From a virus, in IMG/VR virus record IMGVR_UViG_3300025013_000002, positions 18,562-82,561 of that record: a DNA stretch of 64,000 nt. One strand, written 5' to 3'. Under the pieces are notes generated by a model, which was not told where the DNA came from, ran no database searches, and saw nothing but the letters and a program-made list of their open reading frames with translations. Both the position numbers and the translations under genes were made by a program. Positions 3,259-59,802 of this stretch are shown here, piece by piece. Each line of letters opens with the position of its first letter. Position 1 is the stretch's first letter.

Positions 3259-3272
3259 ATTCAGATGTGAAT
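3259..3272. promoter_or_regulatory. Motif A palindrome
   Basis: ATTCAGATGTGAAT, upstream of the ribosome-binding site of the 3032-3247 gene. Candidate repressor operator. Confidence 0.6.
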
Positions 3273-3276
3273 TTGT

Positions 3277-3573
3277 TTAGTCGCAGATAAACGTGCCGTC
3301 TTTGCGGCCCTCATCCAGGCGAGCCTGCCCTTCCACTTTGGTCTGCAAGCGAGGCCACCACAGCCCGTCCGGTACAGCCAAGCCGGTCATCATCCCAACT
3401 GGGAGAGGCACGATGAAAAGGTAATCCTCGGTGCAGTGCTCAACGGCCTCTTCCTCGGTCTCGAAGAGCCCTTCCAGCATCCAGCCGTTTACCTGCCCAT
3501 CGTCTGCGATACCAGCCATGTGCTGACCCACCGCGTACATTTTCCTGATCTCAGGATTTTCCCACCATTTCAT
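3277..3573 (-). CDS. Hypothetical protein, 98 aa
   Basis: Starts at ATG 3573 with AAGGAG upstream. Begins MKWWENPEIRKMYAVG; the middle (ETEEEAVEHCTEDYLFIVPLPVGMMTG) resembles small alpha/beta phage accessory proteins. No conserved motif recognised and no membrane segment. Lies in the replication-proximal operon, 11 nt from its upstream neighbour. Confidence 0.7.
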   Translation of the reverse strand: MKWWENPEIRKMYAVGQHMAGIADDGQVNGWMLEGLFETEEEAVEHCTEDYLFIVPLPVGMMTGLAVPDGLWWPRLQTKVEGQARLDEGRKDGTFICD

Positions 3574-3583
3574 TTTCGTCTCC

Positions 3584-3877
3584 TTAGAAATCCCACGCTT
3601 TCTCTTCGATCTGAGCGCCCTTGCTCCGCAGGAACGGAATCAGCACGTCCTTGAAGCAATTAGGGCAAATGTCTACGTTCAACTCGGTGCCCCAGCCTCC
3701 CTCCGGATAACTGGAGCCGTCCTTCTGGCGAACCGTCACTTCTACCTCGACTTCGTTCACCTCCCAGGAAGAAGACTCCCAGTTCCCGCGCTTGGCTACC
3801 GCACCGCAGAGATCGCAGGTGGTTTCTGCTAGGTAAGTCTCAACTCCGGTTCTAGGCCGAGTTTCGTACTTCTTCAT
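3584..3877 (-). CDS. Zinc-ribbon protein, 97 aa
   Basis: Starts at ATG 3877 with AAAGGAG upstream. Two CxxC knuckles (CDLC at about residue 21 and CPNC at about 72) flank a beta-rich segment (NEVEVEVTVRQKDGSSYPEGG), the layout of a treble-clef or rubredoxin-like ribbon. Likely a small nucleic-acid or protein-binding adaptor; specific role unknown. Confidence 0.75.
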   Translation of the reverse strand: MKKYETRPRTGVETYLAETTCDLCGAVAKRGNWESSSWEVNEVEVEVTVRQKDGSSYPEGGWGTELNVDICPNCFKDVLIPFLRSKGAQIEEKAWDF

Positions 3878-3889
3878 TTTTCGTCTCCT

Positions 3890-4219
3890 TTAGGCGTGAG
3901 CCAGCGGCTCCCAACCGAACCGGCTCATCCGCTGCAAGTACTCCATCTTGCTCTTGTAGATTTCTAGGCTCGCATAGCAAATCGAATCCCCCAGCATTTC
4001 ATCCCTGACGAACTTCAACTCGATCTTGTCCCACCAGGCGCAATCAGTTACGTCGTACTCGCAGCAAAAAACCCTCCCATCCTCCAGGAGCACGTCGATG
4101 TCCACTTCTTCAGGGCCATACGAGCAACGAAGAATTTCCACCCCACCAAGCTCTCGGATAACCTCTTCAAGCACCGAGGAATACCTCGCACCCTCCGTTG
4201 CTTCTACGATGTCGAGCAT
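3890..4219 (-). CDS. Hypothetical protein, 109 aa
   Basis: ATG 4219 chosen because GGGAGG stands 7 nt upstream; a longer in-frame reading to 4273 has no such site. The product (MLDIVEATEGARYSSVLEEV..) is acidic with one CCEYDV segment near the middle. No family recognised. Only 1 nt separates it from the stop of the upstream gene. Confidence 0.7.
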   Translation of the reverse strand: MLDIVEATEGARYSSVLEEVIRELGGVEILRCSYGPEEVDIDVLLEDGRVFCCEYDVTDCAWWDKIELKFVRDEMLGDSICYASLEIYKSKMEYLQRMSRFGWEPLAHA

Positions 4220-4220
4220 T

Positions 4221-4643: not shown

Positions 4644-4646
4644 TTT

Positions 4647-6055: not shown

Positions 6056-6069
6056 GCGGCCTCCTTTTT

Positions 6070-6085
6070 AATTCACTTCTGAATT
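6070..6085. promoter_or_regulatory. Motif A palindrome
   Basis: AATTCACTTCTGAATT between the 6099 and 5864 genes, directly upstream of an AAAGGAGG site. Confidence 0.6.
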
Positions 6086-6098
6086 TGTTCAGCCAAAC

Positions 6099-7134: not shown

Positions 7135-7136
7135 CC

Positions 7137-9592: not shown

Positions 9593-10936
9593 CTAAAAAC
9601 TAATTTTCGTGAACTTCGCTTTATCAAAAGCTTTCAACTCCTTGAAGTCGCTCAGAGGCTCCCCCGGAATCGTTTTGTAATTCCTGAATTTCATGAACTG
9701 GTTCGTGACCGTGCCTAGTTCCAGGTCCTCCTTGTCGGTGACCATCGCGATTGCCAAGTCTGCGTCGTTGATGATGTTCTGAGAAAAGCGAATCTTGCCT
9801 TCTTTGGAGTCGAACTGCAGCGGCGTGATGACGATGCAGTTCCCTCTCCTGGCGAACGTCTTCAAGGCCTTGGACATCTCCAGGTACCTCTCCCAGCTCT
9901 GAAGTCCTCGGTGCCCTGCACCAGCCGGGATGATCGTGATGTAGTCACAAACATAAATCCGGACGCCCTTAGTGCTCCGCAGCAGTTCCATCTCCACCAA
10001 GAGGTCATCGAAGTTTGGAGCGTGGTCATAAATATAAAACCCCTCCGGTTTCCGCTCGAATCGCAGAGCCGCTTCCTGGATGAACTCTTCTTCTGATAAA
10101 CCCGCTTCAAGGCTCTCCTCCACAAAATTCACATCTGAATTGATGAAGAGAAATTTCAACTTAGCTGCCCTTAATTTCCCCCGCTCCTCCTTTGTCAATT
10201 CATCAGAAATAATGTTGCCGAGATCCACGTCCGATTCATGGGACCAGATCCTTGCCATGATCTCTTTCTTGCCCTGCTCCCAGCTCCAGTAGGCGACTCC
10301 CTCGCGGTACTTGTTGTACTGGTGGATGCCGATGGAGTGGGCTCGGGTCGATTTCCCCGTCCCGGTGTCGCCGCAGATCAGAACCAGCGAGCCAAGGGAA
10401 ATCCCATTTCTTCGGTCGATGTCCGGAACGCCGGTTGTGCGCCACTCGAAGCTAACATCTGCACCCGCAAGGGTGAGCATGTCGGAATTCAAAATCTCGT
10501 TATCGCCCGTCAGTAGGATCTGCTCATGCAACCCGCTAAAAAGAGCGAAGGCCTTCTCCGTGTCCCTTGCTTCAGCGGCGTGGGCGATATCTTGGAGTCC
10601 CAATAAAAGATGACGCATCTTCACCTGGTCCGTCAGCTCGGTCATTAGCATGTCGTCGGTCAAGCCGTTGATGTCCCGTTCCTGGATCTGATCCAGCAAA
10701 GCCATCAGGTATCGCTGCTTGTCCACCGTCGAGCACTTGGAAGCTACGTTGCTCCTGAGAACGTCCCAGCCGATGAATTGGCCTGTGTCCACGAAGAATC
10801 TCTTGACCAAGGTGAAAAGTTTAGCAAGCTCCTCGTTGCCGAAGTGCCTTGGAGAGAGCCTTACTAGAAGCTCAGGATTTTTGTCTTGAAGCACCTTCTT
10901 GAGCGCGTTGAGTTCCAGTTGAACCGAGGCGCTCAA
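9593..10936 (-). CDS. DnaB-like replicative helicase
   Basis: 447 aa RecA-fold hexameric helicase. Walker A GDTGTGKST (about 189-197) and Walker B IYVCDYITII (Asp about 331) are intact; the C-terminal region has the conserved MKFRNYKT strand. The N-terminal 150 residues are helical, as in phage DnaB/gp4-type helicases without a primase domain. TTG 10936 overlaps the upstream stop as TTGA; GTG 10948 is the alternative. It unwinds DNA ahead of the family A polymerase and works with the separate primase. Confidence 0.93.
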   Translation of the reverse strand: MSASVQLELNALKKVLQDKNPELLVRLSPRHFGNEELAKLFTLVKRFFVDTGQFIGWDVLRSNVASKCSTVDKQRYLMALLDQIQERDINGLTDDMLMTELTDQVKMRHLLLGLQDIAHAAEARDTEKAFALFSGLHEQILLTGDNEILNSDMLTLAGADVSFEWRTTGVPDIDRRNGISLGSLVLICGDTGTGKSTRAHSIGIHQYNKYREGVAYWSWEQGKKEIMARIWSHESDVDLGNIISDELTKEERGKLRAAKLKFLFINSDVNFVEESLEAGLSEEEFIQEAALRFERKPEGFYIYDHAPNFDDLLVEMELLRSTKGVRIYVCDYITIIPAGAGHRGLQSWERYLEMSKALKTFARRGNCIVITPLQFDSKEGKIRFSQNIINDADLAIAMVTDKEDLELGTVTNQFMKFRNYKTIPGEPLSDFKELKAFDKAKFTKISF

Positions 10937-11927: not shown

Positions 11928-11962
11928 AATTCACTTCTTGATTTTTAATTCACATCTGAATT
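11928..11962. promoter_or_regulatory. Two motif A palindromes downstream of promoter
   Basis: AATTCACATCTGAATT (11947-11962) and the weaker AATTCACTTCTTGATT (11928-11943) lie directly after the minus-strand -10 box, where a bound protein would block initiation. Confidence 0.6.
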
Positions 11963-14123: not shown

Positions 14124-14516
14124 CTACCTCATGCTCTGCACCAAGTTGTGGCTGCAGTAGCCGTTTTTGGCTACGCTGATCGCCTCGCCTGTTGAAATAA
14201 AATACCCGCCCAAATCCCAGTCCTTAACCAGGTCTCGCAAATAACCGTAACTGATTCCTAAAATGTAGGCAGCGTCTTTCCGCGTGTAGCCTTCCGACGC
14301 CACTTGAATAACGTCCTCTTTCGAGACGCAGCGGGAGCTGGCTCTGGTGTGAGGGTACAAGTGGGTCATGCCATTTTTACGAATCACCTCCCCGAAATTC
14401 CTTAAGCTAAGCCCCAACCTCTTAGCAGCAGCACGCTGGTTCAATCCAGCGACTCCAACGCAGTCGGCGTAGGTGATGCCACATTGAGGGAAGAGGATTT
14501 TGTTGGTGTTGGTCAA
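14124..14516 (-). CDS. Helix-turn-helix DNA-binding protein, 130 aa
   Basis: TTG 14516 chosen because GGAGG precedes it; the earlier ATG (14528) lacks one. Two HTH-like units are visible: LNQRAAAKRLGLSLRNFGEVIRK.. (about 25-47) and YTRKDAAYILGISYGYLRDLV (about 77-97). This is a double-HTH architecture typical of phage regulators or small terminase-like proteins. A motif A palindrome lies just upstream. Confidence 0.75.
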   Translation of the reverse strand: MTNTNKILFPQCGITYADCVGVAGLNQRAAAKRLGLSLRNFGEVIRKNGMTHLYPHTRASSRCVSKEDVIQVASEGYTRKDAAYILGISYGYLRDLVKDWDLGGYFISTGEAISVAKNGYCSHNLVQSMR

Positions 14517-14532
14517 AATTTCCTCCATTTCT

Positions 14533-14546
14533 ATTCAGATGTGAAT
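14533..14546. promoter_or_regulatory. Motif A palindrome
   Basis: ATTCAGATGTGAAT upstream of the double-HTH gene. Confidence 0.6.
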
Positions 14547-14549
14547 TTG

Positions 14550-15150: not shown

Positions 15151-16242
15151 CTATTCCGCCGCCTTCACGTTCAATAAAGGCTTGATATGGTCAATCACCC
15201 TCACGGTGACTCCCTCCTGCTTTGCCAGCACGTAATTGATGTCCTTGTAGGCGGCGGGTGCCTCATCTAGGATCGAACGGTCGGTCGAGCAGATGATCCC
15301 GCGCATCCCGTCCTTGAACTCCTGATAATCCAGCGTCTTCTTCGCCTGATTCCTGCCCATGACCCTACCGCAGCCGTGAGACGCCGAGGAGAGATAATGA
15401 GTCTCGCCCAAGCCCTCCGTGATATAAACCCCGTCCCGCATGTTGGCGGGGATTACGCCGAGCTGCCCAAGGTCCGCTGGAGTCGCACCTTTGCGGTGCA
15501 GGACTCCTTCAGCAGTTACAACGGCGTGATTGTGGTTCTCGTTGATGAGGTTCTTCATCAGGAGCTTGGAGACCTGAGAAATCCCAAGCACACCCAGAAC
15601 CGCCTTCATCATCCTCAATCGGTTCTCCAGTGCCCACTCAAGAGCGAAATTCATGTCCTGAAGGTACGCCTGTCCAAGCTCAGATTCAAGCTGGAACATC
15701 CGGCCCTGCTTCATATACCAGCCGCCGATTGTGTGACCTACGTTTCTGGAGCCTGAGTGGATCGTGATGCAGAGACTACCGGCTTGGTTCTCGCCCAACT
15801 CGATGAAATGATTTCCACCACCTAGCGTTCCGAGTTGAGTGCCTACTTTAGCCTGGACCTTCTGGAGTGTATTTTTGTCCAGCGCTTCGGACTTGAATTT
15901 TCTTGAGTAACTTTTCTCCGAAGCATGTGAGGAGAACCCCGTAGGGATTACCTTCAGGATGTCGTTGTAGATGCCACGCAGCGTTGTGACCTCAGCAGCG
16001 ACCATCTGCGTGTCCAAGCAGCACATGCCACACCCGATGTCGTATCCGACGAAACTCGGAGATATCATCCCATCCAGGAGAGCTACCCCTCCAATCGGCA
16101 GGTCGTAACCTGCGTGGACATCAGGCATGATCGCCAGCTTCTTCAGGCAATCCAATTCCAGTACATCAAAAATCTGCTGCTGAGCGGACTGCTCAATTTC
16201 CTCCAGCGGAACCATCGAGAACAACTTGTCGAGCTTACTCAT
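15151..16242 (-). CDS. rtcB: RtcB RNA ligase
   Basis: 363 aa; joins 2',3'-cyclic phosphate (3'-phosphate) and 5'-OH RNA ends using GTP and Mn2+. Signature segments are intact: MPDVHAGYDLPIGGVA, VGYDIGCGM (metal-binding Cys), LGGGNHFIEL, HSGSRNVG, ENHNHAVV, HRKGATPA and SSASHGCGR, which carries the guanylylated His. The protein is shorter than cellular RtcB. In a phage it most likely repairs tRNAs cut by host anticodon nucleases. ATG 16242 has GGAGGGAG upstream and a motif A palindrome before it. Confidence 0.95.
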   Translation of the reverse strand: MSKLDKLFSMVPLEEIEQSAQQQIFDVLELDCLKKLAIMPDVHAGYDLPIGGVALLDGMISPSFVGYDIGCGMCCLDTQMVAAEVTTLRGIYNDILKVIPTGFSSHASEKSYSRKFKSEALDKNTLQKVQAKVGTQLGTLGGGNHFIELGENQAGSLCITIHSGSRNVGHTIGGWYMKQGRMFQLESELGQAYLQDMNFALEWALENRLRMMKAVLGVLGISQVSKLLMKNLINENHNHAVVTAEGVLHRKGATPADLGQLGVIPANMRDGVYITEGLGETHYLSSASHGCGRVMGRNQAKKTLDYQEFKDGMRGIICSTDRSILDEAPAAYKDINYVLAKQEGVTVRVIDHIKPLLNVKAAE

Positions 16243-16254: not shown

Positions 16255-16270
16255 AATTCACTTCCGAATT
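16255..16270. promoter_or_regulatory. Motif A palindrome
   Basis: AATTCACTTCCGAATT, just upstream of the rtcB ribosome-binding site. Confidence 0.55.
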
Positions 16271-16316: not shown

Positions 16317-16673
16317 TCAACCCTCAATAATATCCGAGATCTCCTTCAGCACTTTCTTCCCCTTCGCCGTCAGATAAACCGCGTTCGCCTTTCGGTCATC
16401 TACGTCGGGGCGCTGTGCAACCAACTCGTAACCAGCTTTCGTTTTATTCCCATTGTCGGATTCTACCAGGTAGACCGAAAGTTTTTTGACGTTTCGAGAA
16501 ACGGTACCTTGGGGCCACCCAAGTTTCTCCGCTATTTTCGGTTGCGTGATCCCATCCTGCTCAGCGATTGCCAGTAAAAGCATGACGTGCTGCAGGGGAA
16601 GTTCTGCGAATATTTTTTCCAGCACATGCTGCGCCTTCTTGAACTTCACGAGACCACTTGTTAATCCAGCCAT
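16317..16673 (-). CDS. MarR-like winged-helix regulator 1, 118 aa
   Basis: Helical N-terminus, then a winged helix: DGITQPKIAEKLGWPQGTVSRNVKKL (recognition helix about 62-74) and the wing/terminal RKANAVYLTAKGKKVLKEI. These are the MarR-family features. Dimers of this family bind 16-20 bp palindromes, so it is a candidate for the motif A or B sites. GGAGG is 7 nt before ATG 16673; two motif A-like sites lie upstream, suggesting autoregulation. Paralogous to 16766-17122. Confidence 0.85.
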   Translation of the reverse strand: MAGLTSGLVKFKKAQHVLEKIFAELPLQHVMLLLAIAEQDGITQPKIAEKLGWPQGTVSRNVKKLSVYLVESDNGNKTKAGYELVAQRPDVDDRKANAVYLTAKGKKVLKEISDIIEG

Positions 16674-16714: not shown

Positions 16715-16748
16715 AATTCAAATTAGAATTTACATTCGATTGTGAATT
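16715..16748. promoter_or_regulatory. Two motif A-like palindromes
   Basis: AATTCAAATTAGAATT (16715-16730) and ATTCGATTGTGAATT (16734-16748) upstream of MarR-like gene 1. Confidence 0.5.
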
Positions 16749-16765: not shown

Positions 16766-17122
16766 TTAAGCTGAGGATTCCACGATGGACCTCAACTCCT
16801 TGAAAATCTGCCTTCCTCTAATCGACAGGACCACTTCTCGTTCACGGCGGTTCTCCAAGCTGATTCTCAAATTGATCAGCCCGTAGCCCATTTTCACCGT
16901 CCTCTTGGAATCTATAGCGACCAAATAAGATGGACCCAGCAGCCTCAACATATTTGTTAAGGTGGCTCTGCCCAGCTTAGAAAGGTCCTTCAAATCCGAG
17001 ATTGTGATTCCTTCTTGCTCAGCTACCAGCAAGAATAGGTTTATCAACGAGGACGAAATGCCTTTAAATCTCTCTCCGTACAACTCCTGGAATCGCTCAG
17101 CGTAAGCAGGGTCGAGAGGCAT
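16766..17122 (-). CDS. MarR-like winged-helix regulator 2, 118 aa
   Basis: ATG 17122 has GGAG 5 nt upstream; a longer reading from TTG 17182 is rejected because that TTG is the promoter -35 box. HTH region GITISDLKDLSKLGRATLTNML and a wing/terminal segment REREVVLSIRGRQIFKELR match MarR-type proteins. Same length as regulator 1 and probably its duplicate. Its own promoter has a motif A-like sequence in the spacer. Confidence 0.8.
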   Translation of the reverse strand: MPLDPAYAERFQELYGERFKGISSSLINLFLLVAEQEGITISDLKDLSKLGRATLTNMLRLLGPSYLVAIDSKRTVKMGYGLINLRISLENRREREVVLSIRGRQIFKELRSIVESSA

Positions 17123-17153: not shown

Positions 17154-17182
17154 AGAATACACATCTGATCCGAGAGTGTCAA
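17154..17182 (-). promoter_or_regulatory. Sigma-70 promoter with embedded motif A-like site
   Basis: TTGACA (17182-17177), 17 bp, TATTCT (17159-17154). The spacer and -10 contain TCAGATGTGTATTC, a one-sided match to motif A. Drives MarR-like gene 2. Confidence 0.65.
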
Positions 17183-17225: not shown

Positions 17226-17984
17226 CTACTCGGCCACCTCGATGTCGTCGAAGCAACCAGGAAACCTCGCTTGCATCAACCTGAGAAGCGGCATTGAAAC
17301 CTCTCGCATTTGCGGATGTGCTGCTTTCGCCGTCCTGAGTTTGAAGAACAGGCGCCACTCTCGGAGATTTGCGGTCATTACGAGTTCTGTTTTTAGGCTG
17401 TTGGGGAGGACCGAACGGGCTTGCTCGGGACGCTCACCAAGGTGGCGTTGGCGCAAGTAGTTGTCCTCAGCCAGTTGCATTGAATAAAGCCAGCCGGTCA
17501 TCGGGTCGCCTAATTCTTCCAGCGTGGCTCTTGCTGCGTCGTCAGTCGCGATGCTTGCTTCGCCCGGCAGCAACTGAGGATACCAAGGCGGTATCATGAA
17601 CCCCAAGCTCTGAGGTAGCCACTCCGCATCACAAGCAGGGCAAGTAACCTCCGCGTACCTAGCCTCCATAGACCCACCACAAGCGCCACATACCACTCGT
17701 GCGGCGTAATCACAATAGCGAGTCGATTCCTGACTGAAGCTCGCGATCCGGTGTCGCACAAGCTCGTGCGAGACACCCCGGGCACACACAAACCTAACCG
17801 AAGCTGCAGCATGTTCTAAAACAGACTCGTGGCCGCGCTTCAGGATCATCGCTACGAACTTCTCTGCGGAGTCCTCGGTGATCTTGTCCTCTGACTTGTA
17901 GCAGGTCCTGCCTGCGAGTTCGATCAGCTTCAGGGCGTCCGGGGTGGAGGATATGATTTCTACTGAGGGTTTTATAAGTCTCAC
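17226..17984 (-). CDS. thyX: Flavin-dependent thymidylate synthase ThyX
   Basis: 252 aa from GTG 17984 (GTGA overlap, GAGGAG upstream). Makes dTMP from dUMP with FAD and methylene-tetrahydrofolate. The ThyX motif is RHRIASFSQESTRY, and NLREWRLFFKLR near the C-terminus is the second conserved block. Between them sits an extra CGAC...CPAC zinc-ribbon insert (about 105-125), which most ThyX proteins lack. Supplies thymidylate for phage DNA synthesis. Confidence 0.95.
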   Translation of the reverse strand: MRLIKPSVEIISSTPDALKLIELAGRTCYKSEDKITEDSAEKFVAMILKRGHESVLEHAAASVRFVCARGVSHELVRHRIASFSQESTRYCDYAARVVCGACGGSMEARYAEVTCPACDAEWLPQSLGFMIPPWYPQLLPGEASIATDDAARATLEELGDPMTGWLYSMQLAEDNYLRQRHLGERPEQARSVLPNSLKTELVMTANLREWRLFFKLRTAKAAHPQMREVSMPLLRLMQARFPGCFDDIEVAE

Positions 17985-18268: not shown

Positions 18269-18282
18269 TTACTTCCTCCTAG

Positions 18283-18297
18283 ATTCAGATGTGAATT
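18283..18297. promoter_or_regulatory. Motif A palindrome
   Basis: ATTCAGATGTGAATT upstream of the 17981-18268 gene. Confidence 0.6.
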
Positions 18298-18304: not shown

Positions 18305-18910
18305 TTAAAAATGTCGATATTCCCTAGCCAATTTTAAAACTTTCCTCACGTATTTCGGATTCCTCTTGCCTCTGCTGAAAGCCCCAGTGCCTAAATTATA
18401 AACCTGAAGCCCGTTCCGGACCCCATACTTCGTCACGTACTCCTTCAGGATTTCAGCAGAGCACCTGATGTTAACCTCGGGATCGTACTTTTCAGACTCC
18501 TTCGTAATTAAGGGGAACCGGTCGGCGTGGGCTTTGAAGTCCACCTGCCCAGAGCCCTTCGCACCGGTCCTACTTCTAGCGAAGGGGTAGCCCTCGGACT
18601 CAGCAGTGATGACCCCGACTAAAAGGCTCAGGTCCAGGCGTTGCTCTTTCGCCGCAGCAATGGTAGCTGCTGCCTGGTACTCAGCCAGCTCAGGCCAAAG
18701 CCGCTCGTTCTTCTCCATGTACCACAGCGTCAGCCGCTGGGTTGCTGCGTTGACTTCCTGCTTTTTACCTTCGACCAAAACTTGGGCTTTCTGATCCACC
18801 TTCTGGACTTCCAAGAGCGCCTTGGTTGCGACCGCAGTTGCCGCTGCTGTTAAAATCACCAGCACAACTCCGATCTGGGCCAGGTGAGCCACCCGGATTT
18901 TAAGCCTCAT
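18305..18910 (-). CDS. Membrane-anchored lytic transglycosylase
   Basis: 201 aa. Residues 8-30 form one N-terminal transmembrane or signal-anchor segment; 35-65 is a charged linker helix. The SLT (goose-lysozyme-like) domain follows: LLVGVITAESEGYPFARS with the catalytic Glu, GAKGSGQV, and VYNLGTGAFSRG. Cleaves peptidoglycan glycan strands. The signal anchor suggests a secreted endolysin or a host-wall remodelling enzyme. Overlaps the RHH gene upstream by 11 nt. Confidence 0.85.
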   Translation of the reverse strand: MRLKIRVAHLAQIGVVLVILTAAATAVATKALLEVQKVDQKAQVLVEGKKQEVNAATQRLTLWYMEKNERLWPELAEYQAAATIAAAKEQRLDLSLLVGVITAESEGYPFARSRTGAKGSGQVDFKAHADRFPLITKESEKYDPEVNIRCSAEILKEYVTKYGVRNGLQVYNLGTGAFSRGKRNPKYVRKVLKLAREYRHF

Positions 18911-19055
18911 TTGCTGCTCCTTTTCTCAAAACGTACTCCTTGTCGATCAACTCTCTGAGGATCAGGGATTTGTTGGATTTCCCTGTTCCTAATCTGACGA
19001 GTTCCTCTAGTTTTTTAGTAGTGTCCTCGTCGAGTGCGATGCAGTGCTTGACCAT
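18900..19055 (-). CDS. Ribbon-helix-helix (CopG-type) DNA-binding protein, 51 aa
   Basis: MVKHCIALDEDTTKKLEELV then NKSLILRELIDKEY fits the RHH pattern: an N-terminal strand with alternating residues and two helices around a turn. GGAGGTG lies upstream; GTG 19058 is an alternative start. Such dimers bind short palindromes, so it is another candidate binder for the repeated operators. Confidence 0.7.
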   Translation of the reverse strand: MVKHCIALDEDTTKKLEELVRLGTGKSNKSLILRELIDKEYVLRKGAANEA

Positions 19056-19076
19056 CACTTTTTAAATCACCTCCTT

Positions 19077-19256: not shown

Positions 19257-19290
19257 TTCAATCCACCTCCTTTATTTAAATTCAGATCTG

Positions 19291-19319
19291 AGTATATACC
19301 ATCTCACCTACCAAGTCAA
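19291..19319 (-). promoter_or_regulatory. Sigma-70 promoter with flanking motif A sites
   Basis: TTGACT (19319-19314), 17 bp, TATACT (19296-19291). AATTCAGATCTGAG (19279-19292) covers the start region and another motif A site lies just upstream. Confidence 0.7.
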
Positions 19320-19325
19320 GATAAA

Positions 19326-19341
19326 AATTCACTTGTGAATT
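19326..19341. promoter_or_regulatory. Motif A palindrome
   Basis: AATTCACTTGTGAATT, 7 bp upstream of the -35 box of the 19291-19319 promoter. Confidence 0.65.
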
Positions 19342-24968: not shown

Positions 24969-24997
24969 ATTTTAATTCACTTCTGAATTTTTGTCAA
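24969..24997 (-). promoter_or_regulatory. Sigma-70 promoter with motif A in the spacer
   Basis: TTGACA (24997-24992), 17 bp, TAAAAT (24974-24969). The spacer is almost entirely AATTCAGAAGTGAATT (24974-24989), so a bound dimer would exclude RNA polymerase. Confidence 0.75.
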
Positions 24998-25248: not shown

Positions 25249-25278
25249 TTGACAAACTCTTAGAAATCATGGTATCCT
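25249..25278 (+). promoter_or_regulatory. Plus-strand promoter, cassette A
   Basis: TTGACA (25249-25254), 18 bp, TGG then TATCCT (25273-25278), an extended -10. Opposes the early operon. Confidence 0.6.
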
Positions 25279-27790: not shown

Positions 27791-27879
27791 TTGGCACTCT
27801 CCTTTACCTTGTTCTGAGAGCAAGGCACCCTCTTCCGGGGCTGTTTATCCACAAGTGAATGGGAATGTATATGTGAATT

Positions 27880-32653: not shown

Positions 32654-32676
32654 GGGGTGCCTCCTTAAATGTGAAT

Positions 32677-32691
32677 ATTCACTTCTGAATT
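32677..32691. promoter_or_regulatory. Motif A fused to a motif B-like half
   Basis: ATTCACTTCTGAATT; the preceding AAATGTGAATATTCACT shares its left arm, so motifs A and B overlap here. Confidence 0.55.
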
Positions 32692-33955: not shown

Positions 33956-33964
33956 TCCATCAAG

Positions 33965-33978
33965 ATTCACTTCTGAAT
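33965..33978. promoter_or_regulatory. Motif A palindrome
   Basis: ATTCACTTCTGAAT, beside the motif B copy at 33937-33955. Confidence 0.55.
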
Positions 33979-33981
33979 ACC

Positions 33982-35822: not shown

Positions 35823-35838
35823 AATTCACATGTGTATT
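35823..35838. promoter_or_regulatory. Motif A-like palindrome
   Basis: AATTCACATGTGTATT, 8 bp upstream of the -35 box at 35810-35815. Confidence 0.5.
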
Positions 35839-38010: not shown

Positions 38011-38025
38011 AATTCAGATGTACAT
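38011..38025. promoter_or_regulatory. Motif A-like palindrome
   Basis: AATTCAGATGTACAT, 9 bp upstream of the -35 box at 38035. Confidence 0.45.
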
Positions 38026-38034
38026 ACTTTTATC

Positions 38035-39174: not shown

Positions 39175-39598
39175 AGCACCTCTCCCCTATTGTACCTGGG
39201 GTAATGCTCCATATATGATACGTTAAGCCTAAAAATATGACTTAATGATTCATATTTGATACGTTAAGAGGGCAAAAGTAATGTGGGATTTGAACCGGAG
39301 GTTGGATTTTGGGATTGCTAAAATTTTGGGGATGTGGGTTCAGAAAGGATATACTTTGGGGAAATGCAAAAATGTCAACTAATGGTTTACAAATTTGTGG
39401 ATTTTCAATTTGTTACCTAGCGAACCACAGGTTTCCTCAGGTGGATCGCTTCGCGGGAGAACATGAGGAAACCTGTGGTTCGCCTAAGCCGTGCTCTTGT
39501 GGTCCCAGTAACGTTAAGCAAAATTTACAAAACCTACCTGAAATGTAAATTTTATTTTACGATAGCCACTTTAAAATTCACGCAGCGAAGCGAAGTGC
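39175..39598. other. Non-coding AT-rich region
   Basis: About 420 bp with direct repeats ATRTATGATACGTTAAG-like (39213-39227 and 39253-39267) and the R2 hairpin. No supported open frame. Confidence 0.5.
39420..39483. repeat. Long hairpin repeat R2
   Basis: 20-bp perfect inverted repeat (39420-39439 with 39464-39483) and a 24-nt loop with CGC-TTC-GCG. Differs from R1 by G-C to A-T in the stem and T-A to C-G in the inner loop, both compensated. Confidence 0.75.
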
Positions 39599-39614
39599 AT
39601 TCACATCTGAATTT
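39599..39614. promoter_or_regulatory. Motif A-like palindrome
   Basis: ATTTCACATCTGAATT, 6 bp upstream of the -35 at 39621. Confidence 0.55.
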
Positions 39615-39620: not shown

Positions 39621-39649
39621 TGACAAATATTCAGAAGTGAATTACGATG
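39621..39649 (+). promoter_or_regulatory. Sigma-70 promoter with motif A in the spacer
   Basis: TTGACA (39621-39626), 17 bp, TACGAT (39644-39649). ATTCAGAAGTGAATT (39630-39644) fills the spacer, as in the 24969-24997 promoter. Drives the 39.7-45.3 kb operon. Confidence 0.75.
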
Positions 39650-39708: not shown

Positions 39709-39724
39709 AATTCAGATGTGAATT
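39709..39724. promoter_or_regulatory. Motif A palindrome
   Basis: AATTCAGATGTGAATT, directly before AAGGAG of the 39737 gene. Confidence 0.65.
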
Positions 39725-42540: not shown

Positions 42541-42556
42541 AATTCAGATGTGAATT
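42541..42556. promoter_or_regulatory. Motif A palindrome
   Basis: AATTCAGATGTGAATT, immediately before AAAGGAG of the methyltransferase-like gene. Confidence 0.65.
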
Positions 42557-45371: not shown

Positions 45372-46610
45372 TTATTCAAATTGCTCCCCAAATTTATCTG
45401 CGTCCTTCCTCTTTTGCTCCCTATCGACGAACGCATATTTCCTCGACATGTTGATGTCGCTGTGATCGAGGAAATCTGCGGTCTTCCTGATGTCCTGCGT
45501 AGCTTGGTAGTAGAAGGTCCCGGCTGAGTGCTTGGTGTCGTGGAAGCGCTTGTCTTCGAGCCCTGCTTCCTTTTTGACCTTCTGGAAAATGTTGTCCCAG
45601 TAGGATCTGGAGATGGGCACTTCCGGAGTCTCACCGCAGAAGAGCCAAGGGCTTTCCTGCTCCTTCTTGGTTAGCCCCTCTAGGTAGGAATCCAGCAGGC
45701 TCCTGAGCTTTGGGATCATGTCCAGATAATGTGTGTAGTCGCCCTGCTTCCTTTTGCTTGCTGGGATGGATACGAGATTTTCCTGGAGGTTCAGGTATTC
45801 CTTTTTTAATGAGCATATGGTTTTCCTCCTGAGCCCACCGAACGCGCCCATCCCTATAATGAGTGGAGCCCTCTTGTCTACCAGCTCCGCTGCTTCCAGA
45901 AGCCTATTCAATTCACCCACCGTGTAAAATTTATCCTCCCTGGAATCGTTCTCGGGCCAAGCAGGTACCACCTGAAGCTGATTGTATTCGAGGTACCGCG
46001 TGTTGTCTGGAGCTACGATCTTGGATTTCACGAAGCAGTTGATCATGTTGATGAGGGTGGTCCTGGCCCGGTTCACAGTCGAGTTCGAGTGACCTAGATC
46101 ATCCCGGCAGTAGACCATGTATGCTTGGAGGTGCTGCGGGAGTAGATCCTGAATGAAAACTGGGAGCCGGTCTGATAACTGGCGTGGCAAGGGCTTGTCG
46201 GTCTTCCAGGAGAACTCTCGGAAGAAGGGAGTCAGGTTTCGGTCTAGGCGTTGGAGGTAGAAGGCTCGTGTGTCGGCGTTGGAGAGCCCTTCGAGGTGGG
46301 TTTTGTAAAGCTCTGCGGCTCGATCCCAGGTCAATTTTTCCCGCTTCTGGTTCAGCTTGAAGCGGTCGTCCACGATCTGACCCAGGACCTGGTTAAGCCG
46401 ATCCTCGGCTTGTTTCTTGTGGATGCTGATCTGCTCCGCGATCTGCTTCCCATCGAAGGAGTAGGAGATGCTCCAGAATTTATCAGCCTCGTTTGTGGTG
46501 CTTCCACACTTTTTGCACGGAGGCATCTTCTTGGGAGGATCGGTGAAGCGCTTCCTGGCCCCACACTCGTAGCATCGGACCACCTTGAAAATCGAACCCT
46601 TTTCTCGCAT
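45372..46610 (-). CDS. int: Tyrosine-family integrase
   Basis: 412 aa site-specific recombinase. N-terminal zinc ribbon (CYEC, CKKC), a core-binding SAM-like domain (about 90-205) and a catalytic domain with GGLRRKTI (Arg I), SKRKQGD (Lys), HDTKH, LDHSDI (His) and the nucleophile in SRKYAFVD. The motif usually HxxR reads HDTK, i.e. Lys in place of Arg II. Own promoter (46631-46659) with a motif A site in the spacer; the tRNA-Gln half at 46942-46980 is the likely attP. Confidence 0.93.
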   Translation of the reverse strand: MREKGSIFKVVRCYECGARKRFTDPPKKMPPCKKCGSTTNEADKFWSISYSFDGKQIAEQISIHKKQAEDRLNQVLGQIVDDRFKLNQKREKLTWDRAAELYKTHLEGLSNADTRAFYLQRLDRNLTPFFREFSWKTDKPLPRQLSDRLPVFIQDLLPQHLQAYMVYCRDDLGHSNSTVNRARTTLINMINCFVKSKIVAPDNTRYLEYNQLQVVPAWPENDSREDKFYTVGELNRLLEAAELVDKRAPLIIGMGAFGGLRRKTICSLKKEYLNLQENLVSIPASKRKQGDYTHYLDMIPKLRSLLDSYLEGLTKKEQESPWLFCGETPEVPISRSYWDNIFQKVKKEAGLEDKRFHDTKHSAGTFYYQATQDIRKTADFLDHSDINMSRKYAFVDREQKRKDADKFGEQFE

Positions 46611-46630: not shown

Positions 46631-46659
46631 AATATAATTCAGACGTGAATGGAAGTCAA
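46631..46659 (-). promoter_or_regulatory. Integrase promoter with motif A in the spacer
   Basis: TTGACT (46659-46654), 17 bp, TATATT (46636-46631); AATTCAGACGTGAAT (46636-46650) fills the spacer. Confidence 0.75.
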
Positions 46660-46765: not shown

Positions 46766-46780
46766 AATTCAGACGTGATT
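46766..46780. promoter_or_regulatory. Motif A-like palindrome
   Basis: AATTCAGACGTGATT within the integrase arm region. Confidence 0.5.
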
Positions 46781-46860
46781 TTAAATGCTGGATGTGATTT
46801 AAGGAAGTCTTTATGGATTAGGTAGTTGTGAGATTTGAGGCTTTTTAGTTGATATAGCAA

Positions 46861-46930: not shown

Positions 46931-46945
46931 AATTCACTTGTGAGT
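46931..46945. promoter_or_regulatory. Motif A palindrome at attP edge
   Basis: AATTCACTTGTGAGT; its right end overlaps the last bases of the tRNA-Gln half. Confidence 0.5.
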
Positions 46946-46980
46946 CAGAGTCCGTTGCCTTACCGCTTGGCGACACCCCA
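46942..46980 (-). other. attP candidate: 5' half of tRNA-Gln(CUG)
   Basis: Minus-strand 39 nt: acceptor strand TGGGGTG, TC, D-arm GCCAAGCGGTAAGGC, ACGGA, anticodon loop CTCTGAC, then TC. Identity to tRNA-Gln stops after the loop; no T-arm or 3' half follows. Integration by recombination here would rebuild the host tRNA gene with a phage-supplied 5' half. A promoter lies just upstream. Confidence 0.75.
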
Positions 46981-47105: not shown

Positions 47106-47459
47106 TCAAGTCAACATTCTTTTTCGTCTTTTTTTGGGCTGAGGATCTTGTTTGGAAACTTGGTGGAGCGCCTTGATTTCGTCGAGGAGGATTGAGGGGT
47201 CGATCTGCCACCTACCTTTAGGCCCAGTCTTCCAGCCTGTAAGTTCGCCAAGTTCCAGCTTTCCCTTCAGCCATCTGTCGGACTTGTTGATTTTGATTGA
47301 GGCTTGTTTGAGGCCGATCAGGAGAGGCTCTGGTCGATTTGGGCTAAGCGCTTCGATGGCCGCTTGGAGAATTTTTAATGTCGCGGCATGGACCTCGGCT
47401 TGGGCCTGGAGAAGCCTGAGTAACGATGCTGGGTCCGTGGAAATGGCTTGGGTCTGCAC
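47106..47459 (-). CDS. Excisionase-like winged-helix protein, 117 aa
   Basis: GTG 47459 with GGAGGG upstream. N-terminal helix (SLLRLLQAQAEVHAATLKIL) then a MerR/excisionase-type segment: LIGLKQASIKINKSDRWLKGK..LTGWKTGPKGRWQID, with a basic tail (KKRRKRM). Position next to the attP candidate and integrase supports an Xis role, but this is inference. Confidence 0.65.
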   Translation of the reverse strand: MQTQAISTDPASLLRLLQAQAEVHAATLKILQAAIEALSPNRPEPLLIGLKQASIKINKSDRWLKGKLELGELTGWKTGPKGRWQIDPSILLDEIKALHQVSKQDPQPKKRRKRMLT

Positions 47460-47694: not shown

Positions 47695-47868
47695 CTACTC
47701 CTGACCTTCGTAAGTAACAAGTTGGAAGCATCTTTTCGGATTCCTAATACAGGTAACGTCGGGAGTCTCTGCAACGCACTCAGATTGCGACCTACAGAAG
47801 TAGCAGCAGGTCTGATTCTCCTTGAAAGGGTCGTAGGGACAACATGTGGATTTGCATCTGGCGATCAT
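47695..47868 (-). CDS. Cys-rich protein, 57 aa
   Basis: MIARCKSTCCPYDPFKENQT then CCYFC and single cysteines near 31, 40 and 47: nine in all. ATGA overlap with the FmdB-like gene upstream. Metal-binding or disulphide-rich; unknown. Confidence 0.65.
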   Translation of the reverse strand: MIARCKSTCCPYDPFKENQTCCYFCRSQSECVAETPDVTCIRNPKRCFQLVTYEGQE

Positions 47869-48047
47869 CTCCCACCTCCGTACAAATCCTTAGCCCACCC
47901 AGAGCCCTTCAAGACAAATGAAGGCGAAGCTACGGTTCGGTGCATCGGATGACCACATTCACAAAGCTGAATTCCCGGTGAGTTGAAGGCCTCCCGGACC
48001 TCCCTTGATTTTTCACATTTGCTGCATTTGTACTCGTACAGAGGCAT
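47865..48047 (-). CDS. FmdB-family zinc-ribbon protein, 60 aa
   Basis: MPLYEYKCSKCEKSREVREA.. CECGHPMHRTVASPSFVLKGSGW is the FmdB/CxxC_CxxC regulatory zinc-ribbon pattern, including the KGSGW end. These are small putative regulators widespread in bacteria and phages. First gene of the operon driven by the 48131-48159 promoter. Confidence 0.85.
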   Translation of the reverse strand: MPLYEYKCSKCEKSREVREAFNSPGIQLCECGHPMHRTVASPSFVLKGSGWAKDLYGGGR

Positions 48048-48062
48048 TTTAGAAAATCTCCT

Positions 48063-48077
48063 ATTCGGATATGAATT
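48063..48077. promoter_or_regulatory. Motif A-like palindrome
   Basis: ATTCGGATATGAATT upstream of the FmdB-like gene. Confidence 0.5.
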
Positions 48078-48165: not shown

Positions 48166-48180
48166 AATTCATATCTGAAT
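48166..48180. promoter_or_regulatory. Motif A palindrome between divergent promoters
   Basis: AATTCATATCTGAAT, lying between the two -35 boxes at 48154 and 48191. Confidence 0.65.
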
Positions 48181-48190
48181 AAAAATTCAC

Positions 48191-48244: not shown

Positions 48245-48259
48245 AATTCAGATGTGAAT
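48245..48259. promoter_or_regulatory. Motif A palindrome
   Basis: AATTCAGATGTGAAT in the late leader, 10 nt before the first start codon. Confidence 0.65.
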
Positions 48260-48269
48260 GGGAGAACGA

Positions 48270-48659
48270 ATGGGAGATTGGATTGAGATCAAACCGGAGC
48301 AAGTAAGGAAGGACAACAGCAACCTGTGGCGCATGGAGGGGGAGGGCACCTACATCAATGAGGAGTTAAAGAAATTGAAATTCAAAAAGGTTGAGCCTGA
48401 GCACATTGACCGGCTGAGAAACTGGGTGGCAGTCACTGGCTATGGAATTGCCCATCCTTACGAGGACTTGGATGCTCAATTGGATCTGCAGACTTTTATC
48501 GCGAGGCTAACCGAAGTAGATGCTGAAATTTTTGAACTGTTTCTGGAGAACTACTCGGTCAAGGAAATAGCTGCTGAGGTAAACCGAAATACCAAAACTG
48601 TGTACCGCAGGTTGAGCGGAATTATCGACCAGTACAAGACCTACTACCTGGAGGAATAA
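48270..48659 (+). CDS. Sigma-region-4-like HTH regulator, 129 aa
   Basis: ATG 48270 has GGGAGAACGA upstream; ATG 48258 has none. The C-terminus IFELFLENYSVKEIAAEVNR then NTKTVYRRLSGIIDQYKTY is a region-4-type helix-turn-helix, like RinA/ArpU-type late regulators. First gene of the late operon, directly before terminase, as these regulators often are. Confidence 0.75.
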   Translation: MGDWIEIKPEQVRKDNSNLWRMEGEGTYINEELKKLKFKKVEPEHIDRLRNWVAVTGYGIAHPYEDLDAQLDLQTFIARLTEVDAEIFELFLENYSVKEIAAEVNRNTKTVYRRLSGIIDQYKTYYLEE

Positions 48660-53506: not shown

Positions 53507-53509
53507 AGT

Positions 53510-53523
53510 ATTCACGTGTGAAT
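53510..53523. promoter_or_regulatory. Motif A palindrome
   Basis: ATTCACGTGTGAAT between portal and protease genes. Confidence 0.6.
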
Positions 53524-53594
53524 AAAAATTTAACATTGTTGAGAATTATCGTATGAAATCGACCCAATACCCATAATGAAGCATAAGGAGAATT

Positions 53595-55977: not shown

Positions 55978-55982
55978 AATCT

Positions 55983-55996
55983 ATTCAGATGTGAAT
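55983..55996. promoter_or_regulatory. Motif A palindrome
   Basis: ATTCAGATGTGAAT immediately before the capsid-gene terminator. Confidence 0.6.
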
Positions 55997-56024
55997 AGGG
56001 CGGGGGCCTTAGCTCCCCCGCCCT
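55997..56024 (+). terminator. Terminator after capsid gene
   Basis: AGGGCGGGGG / CCCCCGCCCT 10-bp stem, 8-nt loop, then TTTCTC. Probably partial, since late genes continue. Confidence 0.75.
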
Positions 56025-56048
56025 TTCTCATAGGGATATAGGAGATTT

Positions 56049-56420: not shown

Positions 56421-56423
56421 TCC

Positions 56424-57002: not shown

Positions 57003-57017
57003 AAAGGAGGATCTTGG

Positions 57018-57641: not shown

Positions 57642-58243
57642 TGATTACTTCGATCAAATTCAAACAATCCGATATGGACCGGATCACCCAAAAAATCAAG
57701 AAACTCGAATCCAACGTGATGGACATCAAGAAGCTCTACTTCGTGATCGAGCACTACGCAAGGGCGTACAGACATGGGGTGGTCAAGGCCATAGGGACTG
57801 TAGCAGCTTCGACGGACATGGAGGGAGGCGGGCACGCTTACCCGGTTATCTCCTTCATGGATTTGTCCGCTTCTCCTGTGGGAGGCTGGGAACCCCTCTC
57901 ACCACAAGCAGTCAACAGCAAGATAAAGCGCGGAGGCAGGGTCACCTTTTGGTACCAGACTGGTACCACCTTCGATGCAGTCTCAGGTGCAACTCTAGTT
58001 GGCTCCTACAGCACCAACAGGACCGCTACGGTGTTCGCTGGGATTGATAGGGCGCGGGATGCAGAGGCGTACAAGCACGCGATCCTAACTGAGTTCGGAG
58101 GAGTGAACGAGAAGAACAAACGAGTTCCGGCCCGAGCCCTCTTCACAATCGCCAACGAACTTTTCAAAACCAAAAGAAACGAAATCGAGAAAGCGGTTAT
58201 GACCGCAGTTTTAGAGGGCGTCAACTGGGGAGGGGCTAAATGA
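57641..58243 (+). CDS. Tail completion/neck protein (HK97 gp10-like), 200 aa
   Basis: ATG 57641 overlaps the previous stop (TAATG). MDRITQKIKKLESNVMDIKK.. and a C-terminal HAILTEFGGVNEKNKRVPARALFTIAN match the gp10-like family (E.G....+VPARP.F). Sits between head closure and tail terminator genes as in lambdoid phages. Confidence 0.8.
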   Translation: MITSIKFKQSDMDRITQKIKKLESNVMDIKKLYFVIEHYARAYRHGVVKAIGTVAASTDMEGGGHAYPVISFMDLSASPVGGWEPLSPQAVNSKIKRGGRVTFWYQTGTTFDAVSGATLVGSYSTNRTATVFAGIDRARDAEAYKHAILTEFGGVNEKNKRVPARALFTIANELFKTKRNEIEKAVMTAVLEGVNWGGAK

Positions 58244-58662
58244 CACTGACCGACGTAGAAGCGTCCTTCTTCCGGTACCTCTACGAGCAACTCGAAGTGC
58301 CATTTGGCATCCGAGTGTTCGAGGACATTACCTTGGAGGAATACGCAGATTTAGAAAAGTGGGTCGTCATCGAAACCCTGACCAACGTAACCGGCTACCA
58401 GCCGAAGCAATTATGGTTCCTCCACATGGCGACCCAAAACAACGGCAAGCAGTCGAAAGAGGTGCTGATCAGGTTGGTCGATCAGGTCATGCAGGTGGTC
58501 AACAAAGGGACGACCATTGTGGTCTACGACTACGATGACGGACAAGAAATAGGTGGGATGGAGGTTCAAGAAACTAGCCTCAGCCCTGTAATGCCCCACT
58601 TCAGCGGCGGGGCTTTTCGCAGCTTAACAGTCGGCGTAACTTACGCCGCTGAAAACAACTAA
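58240..58662 (+). CDS. Tail terminator protein, 140 aa
   Basis: Alpha-beta protein with SKEVLIRLVDQVMQVVNKGT.. helix and a beta-sheet end (GGAFRSLTVGVTYAAE), like gpU/gp17 tail terminators that cap the tube. ATGA overlap with the gp10-like gene. Call from size and position. Confidence 0.7.
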   Translation: MTLTDVEASFFRYLYEQLEVPFGIRVFEDITLEEYADLEKWVVIETLTNVTGYQPKQLWFLHMATQNNGKQSKEVLIRLVDQVMQVVNKGTTIVVYDYDDGQEIGGMEVQETSLSPVMPHFSGGAFRSLTVGVTYAAENN

Positions 58663-58674
58663 GGAGATGCACAA

Positions 58675-59766
58675 ATGGCCGTATTAGGAAAAGATTATCA
58701 GCCGATTGTTAAAAATGTAGATGGCGTTTTGGCGGGAGTTGCGCAGGTCCGACTAGGTAAGTCGTCTTATCGCCGAGTCGGAACTGCTGCGGTGGGTACT
58801 CCGGCAGCAGCTTCTAAATCCGAAATCATCATTGATGAATCTGACGGAGTTACTCCTGTGGTTGCGCCCATCTCGGGGCTTCCATCTGACGTGGTTAACA
58901 CTTGGGCGGGTCAGCCTGTAACCGTGATAGGCACATACACCGGTAGATACGATGGCTGCTTCATTGTCCGTGCTGGTGCTTACAACGACACACTCGGGGA
59001 GGTTCTGGCTGCTACTGGGAAGGTCGAAGTATTCGCCCCGAACGGATTCCGGACTCAGCTTACTCTCGTAGCTGGTGCCGTAGCAGCTACTGAGATCGAC
59101 TTGAATGATGAGGTATCTGCTACCACGTCTGGCCTGAGTTTTGCTCTGAACTTCGGGGCATCCCCCACCACACAGGTAGGTGACACTTGGGTGGTTCCGG
59201 TTTGGTCTGGGGTTGCGATAGACAGAACCCAGACATGCATTGTTACCCCCTTCTCGATGTTCAGGGGTGCTAACGAGTCCGTAGGTGGTCTGACTGATGC
59301 AGCTTTCACCCCGAATATAGAAGCCATTGCCCAGCTTGAGTCAGGCTTCCCTGCTGTAGTAATGGACAGGATCGTGACCAAGACCAGTGGGCAAATCACG
59401 TTTGATGCTCAGGAATTCATAAACGAGCGGATTCAGATTATCAAGGACATGGTTTCTCAAATTATCAATAAGGCCAAACTGTCCGCGTGCCCTGTTGAGG
59501 TTGTTATGCGCAGTCGCGGTAACGTTCAGGTCTCCTTTTGGATTCCTAACGCGGGCATTACCAAAGGACCAACCTACAACCCCAAGAATGATTATTCGAC
59601 ATTCCCTTGGGAGATGGAAGCGATCAATCAGACGGAGGTTTCCAAGAATGGGGATTTCGCTGATCTGCCCTCTTCTGGGGACCCCGCTTCTCCGAAAGAG
59701 TACGAAACGTTCCAAGCGTGGTTGAGGAACATCCCGCTTTATAGCGAGTTGTATTACAAGCACTAA
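58675..59766 (+). CDS. Major tail tube protein, 363 aa
   Basis: MAVLGKDYQPIVKNVDGVLA.. large beta-rich protein just before the tail chaperones; the position identifies the tail tube. At 363 aa it is longer than simple tubes (about 140-250), so it probably carries an extra domain (about 45-190, with TYTGRYDGCFIVRAGAYND). AAGGAG at ATG 58675. Confidence 0.8.
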   Translation: MAVLGKDYQPIVKNVDGVLAGVAQVRLGKSSYRRVGTAAVGTPAAASKSEIIIDESDGVTPVVAPISGLPSDVVNTWAGQPVTVIGTYTGRYDGCFIVRAGAYNDTLGEVLAATGKVEVFAPNGFRTQLTLVAGAVAATEIDLNDEVSATTSGLSFALNFGASPTTQVGDTWVVPVWSGVAIDRTQTCIVTPFSMFRGANESVGGLTDAAFTPNIEAIAQLESGFPAVVMDRIVTKTSGQITFDAQEFINERIQIIKDMVSQIINKAKLSACPVEVVMRSRGNVQVSFWIPNAGITKGPTYNPKNDYSTFPWEMEAINQTEVSKNGDFADLPSSGDPASPKEYETFQAWLRNIPLYSELYYKH

Positions 59767-59786
59767 GTTATTGATTTACTTAAACT

Positions 59787-59802
59787 AATTCAGATGTGAA
59801 TT
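59787..59802. promoter_or_regulatory. Motif A palindrome
   Basis: AATTCAGATGTGAATT before the tail-tube terminator. Confidence 0.6.

Follow-up and report, generated by a model that had tools for sequence, protein, structure and literature searches.

The DNA analysed here is a 64-kb stretch, hereafter the window, comprising positions 18562-82561 of the IMG/VR virus record IMGVR_UViG_3300025013_000002 (record A; 82,561 bases). Throughout the window a palindrome, AATTCA-N4-TGAATT, recurs in the gaps between genes. The record belongs to a tailed temperate phage, as marked by its terminase, portal and major capsid protein together with a tyrosine integrase. The genes of the window form two arms, leftward over approximately 0-37.6 kb and rightward over approximately 38-64 kb, with a leftward islet at 45.4-48.0 kb inside the rightward arm. 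The islet includes the integrase gene (45372-46610, minus strand; Pfam 5.8e-21, phrog_1 3.6e-36), which marks the phage as temperate and whose own promoter carries a copy of the palindrome. A relative, record B (G001; 102,669 bases), is colinear with A. We infer that the phage of record A is temperate and has a full size of roughly 100 kb. Genes were called with a simple in-house caller, by which 85% of A and 91% of B is coding.

With up to two mismatches allowed, the window contains 32 copies of the palindrome where 3.4 are expected, and the maximum over 100 shuffles was 8. A position weight matrix was then built from 21 sites and their reverse complements, which makes it symmetrical. On the window and its left flank this matrix gave 43 matches of at least 7 bits and 35 of at least 13 bits, while five shuffles gave 2-10 and 0-3, respectively. 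The 35 sites of at least 13 bits in record A consist of 28 in the window and seven in the 18.5 kb to its left. An earlier sequence-only reading of this stretch had counted at least 27 copies, which agrees with these numbers. All 13 of its example positions are genuine sites, four of them given one base off. The matrix scan of the full record and of related phages that it had proposed yielded, besides the 35 sites in A, 44 in B. Equal abundance inside genes had been named as one outcome that would count against the idea, and the motif is not distributed in this way: 31 of the 35 sites lie outside called genes in A, despite its 85% coding content, as do 36 of the 44 in B.

The sites are more conserved than their surroundings in the close relative B. 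The alignment of A with B took in 36 of 39 sites (the 35 above and four weaker ones; 6070, 35823 and 39709 could not be aligned), and 551 of 577 site bases are identical compared to 3104 of 3717 bases in the 60-nt flanks. A distant contig with another metagenome number, L074, whose terminase is 59% identical and whose shared proteins are 35-62% identical, carries three sites, at places matching 48166, 53509 and 55982. To gauge specificity, 20 of the 33 viral contigs containing the exact 16-mer were searched. Eight of them belong to this phage group, as judged by terminase, other shared genes or matching site spacing, and have 5-32 copies of ATTCAN4TGAAT each. The remaining 12 contigs have one copy apiece.

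The sites were viewed in gene orientation together with a promoter scan. The automatic classification of the 35 sites gave 13 at promoters, six after a stop codon and ahead of the next start, three before a terminator, three within genes and 10 others. Three of the last group (33964, 42541 and 53509), each 2 nt past a stop codon, were reassigned by eye, which brings the number of sites resembling stoperators, the transcription-blocking repressor sites of mycobacteriophage L5, to 12, including the weak site 27846. The sequence-only reading had proposed an L5-like logic, and as far as placement goes this is what we see: recognisable promoters account for 13 of the 35 sites, and 12 others follow a stop codon and precede the next start or a terminator.

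Below, each site is given with its matrix score and the number of its positions identical in B; negative coordinates lie to the left of the window. Four sites occupy the 17-bp spacer between the -35 and -10 hexamers, beginning two bases past the -35 hexamer. These are 24974-24989 (TTGACA, TAAAAT; 25.3 bits; 16/16), 39628-39643 (TTGACA, TACGAT; 23.7 bits; 15/16), 46636-46651 in the integrase promoter (TTGACT, TATATT; 21.0 bits; 16/16) and -3916. Six more end 6-9 bp before a -35 hexamer: 19326-19341, which is 6 bp before that of promoter 19319 (25.5 bits; 15/16), 39598-39613 (24.8 bits; 14/16), 48166-48181, which lies between divergent promoters and upstream of both -35 hexamers (22.1 bits; 14/16), 38011-38026 at the first rightward promoter (13.1 bits; 16/16), -3886 and -3716. 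Two promoters have both a spacer site and an upstream site, 30 bp apart, one of them being the promoter flanked by 39598 and 39628. Promoter 19319 has a second site overlapping its -10 hexamer (19279-19294; 19.3 bits; 15/16). The site at 11947-11962 is in the downstream part of a promoter (27.4 bits; 15/16), and 35823-35838 is just upstream of a -35-like hexamer, TTGACG (21.2 bits; unaligned in B).

At the second kind of place, a stop codon is followed by a site and then by the Shine-Dalgarno-like sequence of the next gene. Examples are 3258-3273 (24.8 bits; 16/16), 6070-6085 (25.3 bits; unaligned in B), 14532-14547 (25.9 bits; 16/16), 18282-18297 (23.9 bits; 16/16), 32676-32691 (23.7 bits; 16/16) and 42541-42556, the last beginning 2 nt past the stop codon (27.4 bits; 16/16). 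The same distance of 2 nt separates 33964-33979 (20.2 bits; 13/16 with a gap) from a stop codon and 53509-53524 (20.8 bits; 14 of 17 columns) from the portal stop codon. Elsewhere a terminator-like hairpin follows the site, as at 55982-55997 after the capsid gene (24.4 bits; 16/16) and at 59787-59802 (27.4 bits; 16/16). The weak site at 27846-27861 is not conserved, scoring 14.8 bits in A and only 3.5 bits in B. Further sites stand 12 nt before a start codon (39709-39724; 27.4 bits; unaligned in B), before the leftward gene 47865-48047 (48062-48077; 17.2 bits; 16/16), before the first rightward late gene (48245-48260; 24.8 bits; 16/16) and between the integrase gene and an attP-like region (46766-46781; 17.2 bits; 16/16). 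Another weak site, 46931-46946 (15.5 bits; 14/16), overlaps the half tRNA of the attP-like region, and its conservation may partly have another cause.

Because so many sites abut a Shine-Dalgarno-like sequence, and because AAUUCA-N4-UGAAUU is able to form a 6-bp stem, the palindrome might function at the RNA level, as a hairpin preceding Shine-Dalgarno sequences and terminators. We rejected this reading in view of how the bases vary and where the sites lie at promoters. The outermost bases often fail to pair, the central bases are found in either orientation, and sites in spacers or upstream of a -35 hexamer are not transcribed from that promoter. We regard an RNA role as extremely unlikely.

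The statement in the sequence-only reading that no clear copy lies inside a gene body did not hold. A perfect copy (10126-10141; 27.4 bits) is found within a DnaB-like helicase gene, and two more intragenic sites, -10424 and -854, lie to the left of the window. Each of the three is identical in B at 16 of 16 positions, with flanks that are 80-91% identical. A fourth site counted as intragenic, -15990, overlaps the last codons of a gene.

Two genes for MarR-like regulators of 118 amino acids each are found on the minus strand of the leftward arm, with genes for an RtcB RNA ligase (15151-16242, minus strand) and ThyX (17226-17984, minus strand) as neighbours. Regulator 1 (16317-16673) matches Pfam MarR_2 above the cut-off (4e-9) and phrog_9665 (3e-20) and is 88% identical in B. 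Regulator 2 (16766-17122), a diverged paralog, also matches phrog_9665 (4e-8), scores below the cut-off for Pfam MarR and is 65% identical in B. The two are 27% identical to each other. A structure predicted for regulator 1 from an alignment of three sequences, with a predicted local distance difference test score of 73, has MarR (3bpx) and MepR (4l9t) as its best Foldseek matches (E 1.5e-4). A MarR-type fold can be assigned to regulator 1 with moderate confidence.

The promoter of the pair (TTGACA-N17-TATTCT; 17154-17182, minus strand) contains a degenerate, conserved operator-like sequence whose best site scores 5.7 bits in A and 4.6 bits in B. Between the two genes is a degenerate double site (16715-16748) with members at 16715 and 16733 of 10.3 and 12.5 bits. 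Each is identical in B at 16 of 16 positions, although the second MarR gene is only 65% identical. Directly downstream of the pair, before the RtcB gene, is a strong site (16255-16270; 20.4 bits, and 25.3 bits in B). Promoters with TTGACA or TTGACT and a start codon on the same strand within 100 bp were tallied by hand from the promoter scan. In A, nine of 10 such promoters have a site of at least 13 bits and the promoter of the MarR pair is the sole exception. In B, eight of 10 have a site; the two that do not are the MarR promoter (4.6 bits) and one whose best site scores 10.9 bits. The promoters at 25249, 26403, 30534, 47028 and 47114 are also without a site and are outside these counts, as they have their start codon farther off or lie on the opposite strand of the left arm.

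Homologs of the pair were found by tblastn and blastp in temperate T7-like phages, where they adjoin the integrase in those phages whose records name one; the records of YIMV22061 and TRX32-1 name none. In the available text of the LUZ100 report, the authors propose that a homologous MarR-type protein governs lysogeny and cite the hypothesis of Boeckman et al. 2022 that MarR sites flank the RNA polymerase promoter (PMC10134795). Boeckman et al. 2022 may perhaps already describe some of the T7-like sites. Twelve MarR-bearing T7-like phages, six of them only in part, were searched for any repeated intergenic palindrome without the motif being supplied. The search was limited to intergenic DNA and then to self-complementary arms, as a version covering all positions was too noisy in coding DNA.

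In the Rhizobium phage TRX32-1, the top palindrome was ATTCAC-N2-GTGAAT with 12 sites, which is the same as the window motif. RHEph21 has the same palindrome at seven sites, and shuffling the intergenic letters of each of these two phages 20 times gave a maximum of 3. Allowing up to two mismatches yields 15 matches in the full TRX32-1 record, of which 14 are intergenic although only 10% of the genome is non-coding. Seven of these 14 begin 3-8 nt past a stop codon, as in the window. The matrix trained on the window gave 10 matches in TRX32-1 (shuffle mean 0.7, maximum 2) and five in RHEph21 (mean 0.9, maximum 3). TRX32-1 was obtained by induction of a lysogenic strain, and the words "MarR" and "operator" do not occur in the available portions of its report (PMC8631192). 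The TRX32-1 proteins that match A or B at E < 0.01 are a DNA-polymerase stretch (in B) and the MarR protein, which by sequence comparison is the sole recognised regulator common to TRX32-1 and A or B.

A few other palindromes came up in the same phages. In RHph_I20 (L086), which has two MarR genes, TCACAT-N4-ATGTGA has 12 matches against 0.7 expected, the motif having been picked on the same data; under the strict condition it has five sites. A palindrome of S-CBP2 with 10 sites in the intergenic search had four under self-complementarity and was dropped. So was a motif of YIMV22061 (seven sites against 2.6 expected, with one of 100 shuffles giving as many), which had been picked on the same data. 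HTVC022P, which was outside the search for self-complementary arms, showed nothing strong in the intergenic palindrome search.

We think it likely that the motif is the operator of the MarR-type pair (16317-16673 and 16766-17122) and that this pair is the master repressor of the roughly 100-kb temperate phage. A palindrome-like repeat is by itself no proof of an operator, because the repeats found in the control T7 coincide with its phage promoters. What counts in favour of the assignment is the identity of the TRX32-1 word with the window motif, together with the regulator that the phages share.

Several findings weigh against this assignment. The window motif was found in just two of the 12 T7-like phages searched and, as TRX32-1 and RHEph21 are both Paadamvirus, they represent one independent lineage. 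RHph_I20 and CRP-361 have five sites each of other palindromes, and in the other eight phages the palindrome count equals the null maximum or differs from it by no more than one. Among the controls, T7 and SP6 gave seven sites each and phiKMV three; those of T7 coincide with annotated phage promoters and those of SP6 are untraced. Phages that lack this palindrome likewise gave more matches to the window-trained matrix than their shuffle mean, with 8 matches against 2.5 (maximum 6) in HTVC304P, 4 against 0.6 in RHph_I20 and 3 against 0.6 in S-CBP2. The MarR pair is about 28 kb from the integrase gene, unlike the arrangement in the T7-like phages, and the sites that lie solely upstream of a -35 hexamer could equally serve activation. 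Alignments of terminase and integrase with genome contigs, selected by two short peptide patterns each, gave no relative, and neither host nor prophage was found among them. Lastly, 85 further proteins shared with B or record C were outside the scan for helix-turn-helix (HTH) domains, so a reader that we did not recognise could be among them.

The last point bears on the idea that another phage protein reads the sites, be it a ribbon-helix-helix (RHH) protein (18900-19058), an HTH protein (14124-14528) or an unrecognised DNA-binding protein. The sequence-only reading had named both the two MarR-like proteins and the RHH protein as candidates; the former are favoured here and the latter is not. 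The RHH protein shares 94% identity with its counterpart in B, its RHH_1 match is just under the cut-off, and promoter 19319, ahead of its gene cluster, has two sites. A master repressor that is fully repressed by its own operators is less plausible, though, and TRX32-1 has the motif and no RHH counterpart, either among called proteins (E < 0.05) or in its DNA (E up to 1). The RHH protein was rejected as the reader on this last ground. The HTH protein likewise has no counterpart in TRX32-1, and in B it has only a 59-amino-acid homolog. Overall, a different phage reader seems quite unlikely.

Palindromes of the form X-N4-X are common for bacterial regulators, and the sites could be read by a host transcription factor, which would tie the phage to host physiology. 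The Rhizobium phages TRX32-1 and RHph_I20 differ in their MarR proteins and also in their motifs (ATTCAC-N2 and TCACAT-N4, respectively), suggesting that the motif tracks the phage MarR protein and not the host genus. We consider a host reader very unlikely.

If the MarR pair is the reader, its effect would depend on where it binds. When bound at a promoter, in the -35/-10 spacer or just before the -35 hexamer, it would block initiation. At sites that follow a stop codon and precede the next start or a terminator, the bound pair would present elongating RNA polymerase with a roadblock, in the way that L5 stoperators do. The pair itself would be transcribed from its own sigma70-type promoter, and because that promoter has only degenerate operators, the pair would stay on and be at most weakly autoregulated. 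The strong site at 16255 would stop read-through from the MarR transcript into the lytic genes. Together, these activities could maintain lysogeny.

The MarR proteins might also bind the sites in order to time lytic genes, including by activation from sites centred near -50, and have no part in immunity. At several promoters the sole nearby site ends 6-9 bp before the -35 hexamer, and many sites are among structural genes, each of which a lysogeny switch need not mark. The spacer sites, on the other hand, best fit repression, the promoters are already near-consensus at the -35 hexamer, and the integrase and the lysogeny of TRX32-1 indicate a temperate life style. A role in timing alone is in our view unlikely.

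The two halves of the sites are of two types. Among the sites of A with at least 17 bits and with C or G as the inner base on both sides, 22 of 28 pair ATTCAC with ATTCAG, where random pairing would lead to 50% (permutation p 0.004). Lowering the threshold to 13 bits gives 23 heterotypic sites of 31 (p 0.009), and the base after ATTCAG is A in 30 of 31 cases. The same bias is seen in B (31 of 37) and in records C, D and E taken together (28 of 31), but these counts cannot be treated as independent of A. A set of 14 hand-picked positions thought to exist only in B (11 of 12 heterotypic) was discarded, since at least 86909 has a counterpart in A. After a liberal alignment test five B positions remained without a site in A; four are heterotypic, too few for significance (p 0.38). 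The claim of heterotypic pairing is therefore drawn from A. We also checked by eye for an L5-like rule of orientation, and the result was unconvincing, with the G-half upstream at about 15 sites and the C-half at about seven.

The Paadamvirus sites look different in this respect. In a neutral scan with up to one mismatch, nine of nine sites in TRX32-1 and five of five in RHEph21 have C on both sides, compared to 18 of 24 heterotypic sites in the window; with up to two mismatches, 14 of 15 and seven of nine, respectively, are of the C/C type. MarR genes were counted using a profile built on 12 of the MarR proteins. A, B and RHph_I20 have two each, every other MarR phage has one (six of the latter records being partial), and T7, phiKMV and SP6 have none. 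The central four bases of the RHph_I20 motif read YCCG on the coding strand at seven of 12 sites and on the opposite strand at one (hand count), and its operator also looks asymmetric.

These results raise the tentative idea, which we think possible but would not yet rely on, that the two MarR proteins act as master regulator only in the form of a heterodimer. One paralog would read ATTCAC, like the single MarR protein of TRX32-1, and the other would read ATTCAG; regulator 1 is proposed for the former half and regulator 2 for the latter. Duplication of a homodimeric phage repressor would then have led its operator to diverge into two different halves, at some 35 places. The alternative is a homodimer that binds unevenly.

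Some further features were observed around the integrase. The attP-like region beside it (46931-46980, minus strand) carries what by eye resembles the 5' half of a tRNA-Gln(CTG) that ends at the anticodon stem-loop, with the loop CTCTGAC in A and TTCTGAT in B, C and E. ARAGORN found no whole tRNA in the window. This tRNA half is downstream of the sigma70-like promoters 47028 and 47114, and integration may supply a tRNA promoter together with the 5' half. A 117-amino-acid protein encoded next to attP and the integrase (47106-47459, minus strand) is 84-85% conserved and has a short HTH-like stretch by eye. It is possibly an excisionase; the Pfam and PHROG profiles gave no family match above the cut-off.

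Strong sigma70-like promoters without operators at 25249, 26403 and 30534 (plus strand) oppose the leftward genes. The first two have look-alikes in B (97049 and 98066), and all three may serve to transcribe small RNAs, or short genes that escaped recognition, within gaps of about 200 bp. In the rightward arm, 48270-48659 (plus strand) encodes a small protein with an HTH like that of sigma70 region 4 (Pfam 9.8e-9), and the next gene is a weak match to the terminase small subunit. An open reading frame of 1101 codons (60696-63998, plus strand) runs off the window end and, by position only, is possibly the tape measure gene. Record A also ends at this point, and B continues for about 27 kb further. 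Nothing close to the first 25 kb of the window turned up in the phage collection, and an Rfam scan gave two matches only, both under the gathering score.

No description of this network was found in the open-access literature searched. The closest likeness, going by the available portions of the papers cited, is with the L5/Cluster A repressor network. It has at least 20 copies genome-wide, at promoters and in short intergenic gaps; one copy occupies the gap preceding the repressor gene, and others lie in the genes downstream of the repressor (PMC6550527, PMC9283540). An L5-like placement of many predicted repressor sites is found here as well. The sites themselves differ, as the sequence-only reading had remarked. 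Those of L5 are 13 bp long, asymmetric and orientation-dependent and are read by a monomer with two DNA-binding domains (PMC9283540), whereas the sites described here are 16-bp pseudo-palindromes with their central bases in both orientations relative to the genes. The favoured reader here is a 118-amino-acid MarR-type protein, predicted to have a single winged helix. SPbeta, as portrayed in the available text of its report, also has one prophage repressor acting on an element repeated at several places in the phage genome, but MrpR is tyrosine-recombinase-like and its element, SPBRE, is 15 bp long and located at promoters (PMC10516654); the favoured reader here is MarR-like.

The regulators are homologous to those of the MarR-integrase cassette of T7-like phages (LUZ100, the Pelagibacter HTVC phages and the Paadamvirus TRX32-1), and the TRX32-1 lineage shares the same palindrome at the same kinds of places. 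In the cassette, MarR is beside the integrase and before a single-subunit RNA polymerase, whereas here the pair has RtcB and ThyX as neighbours and the integrase is far off. A phage of about 100 kb, two MarR genes, about 35 sites and heterotypic half-sites are further differences. The conserved inverted repeats of phiC31 and the c1 operators of P1 are dispersed operators of a single phage repressor, as is proposed here, and differ from this motif in sequence and repressor family. The network would be a MarR-type version of the known genome-wide phage repressor networks.

Such networks are known from a handful of phages with unrelated repressors, to which a MarR-type one would now be added. A group of phages of about 100 kb would also become linked to the temperate T7-like phages via one regulator and its DNA word. 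In the T7-like phages, the MarR lysogeny switch is still a proposal, and it gains concrete candidate operators. If the heterodimer proposal is true, this phage would have a two-key immunity system, and the duplication of a regulator could be traced across an entire operator network.

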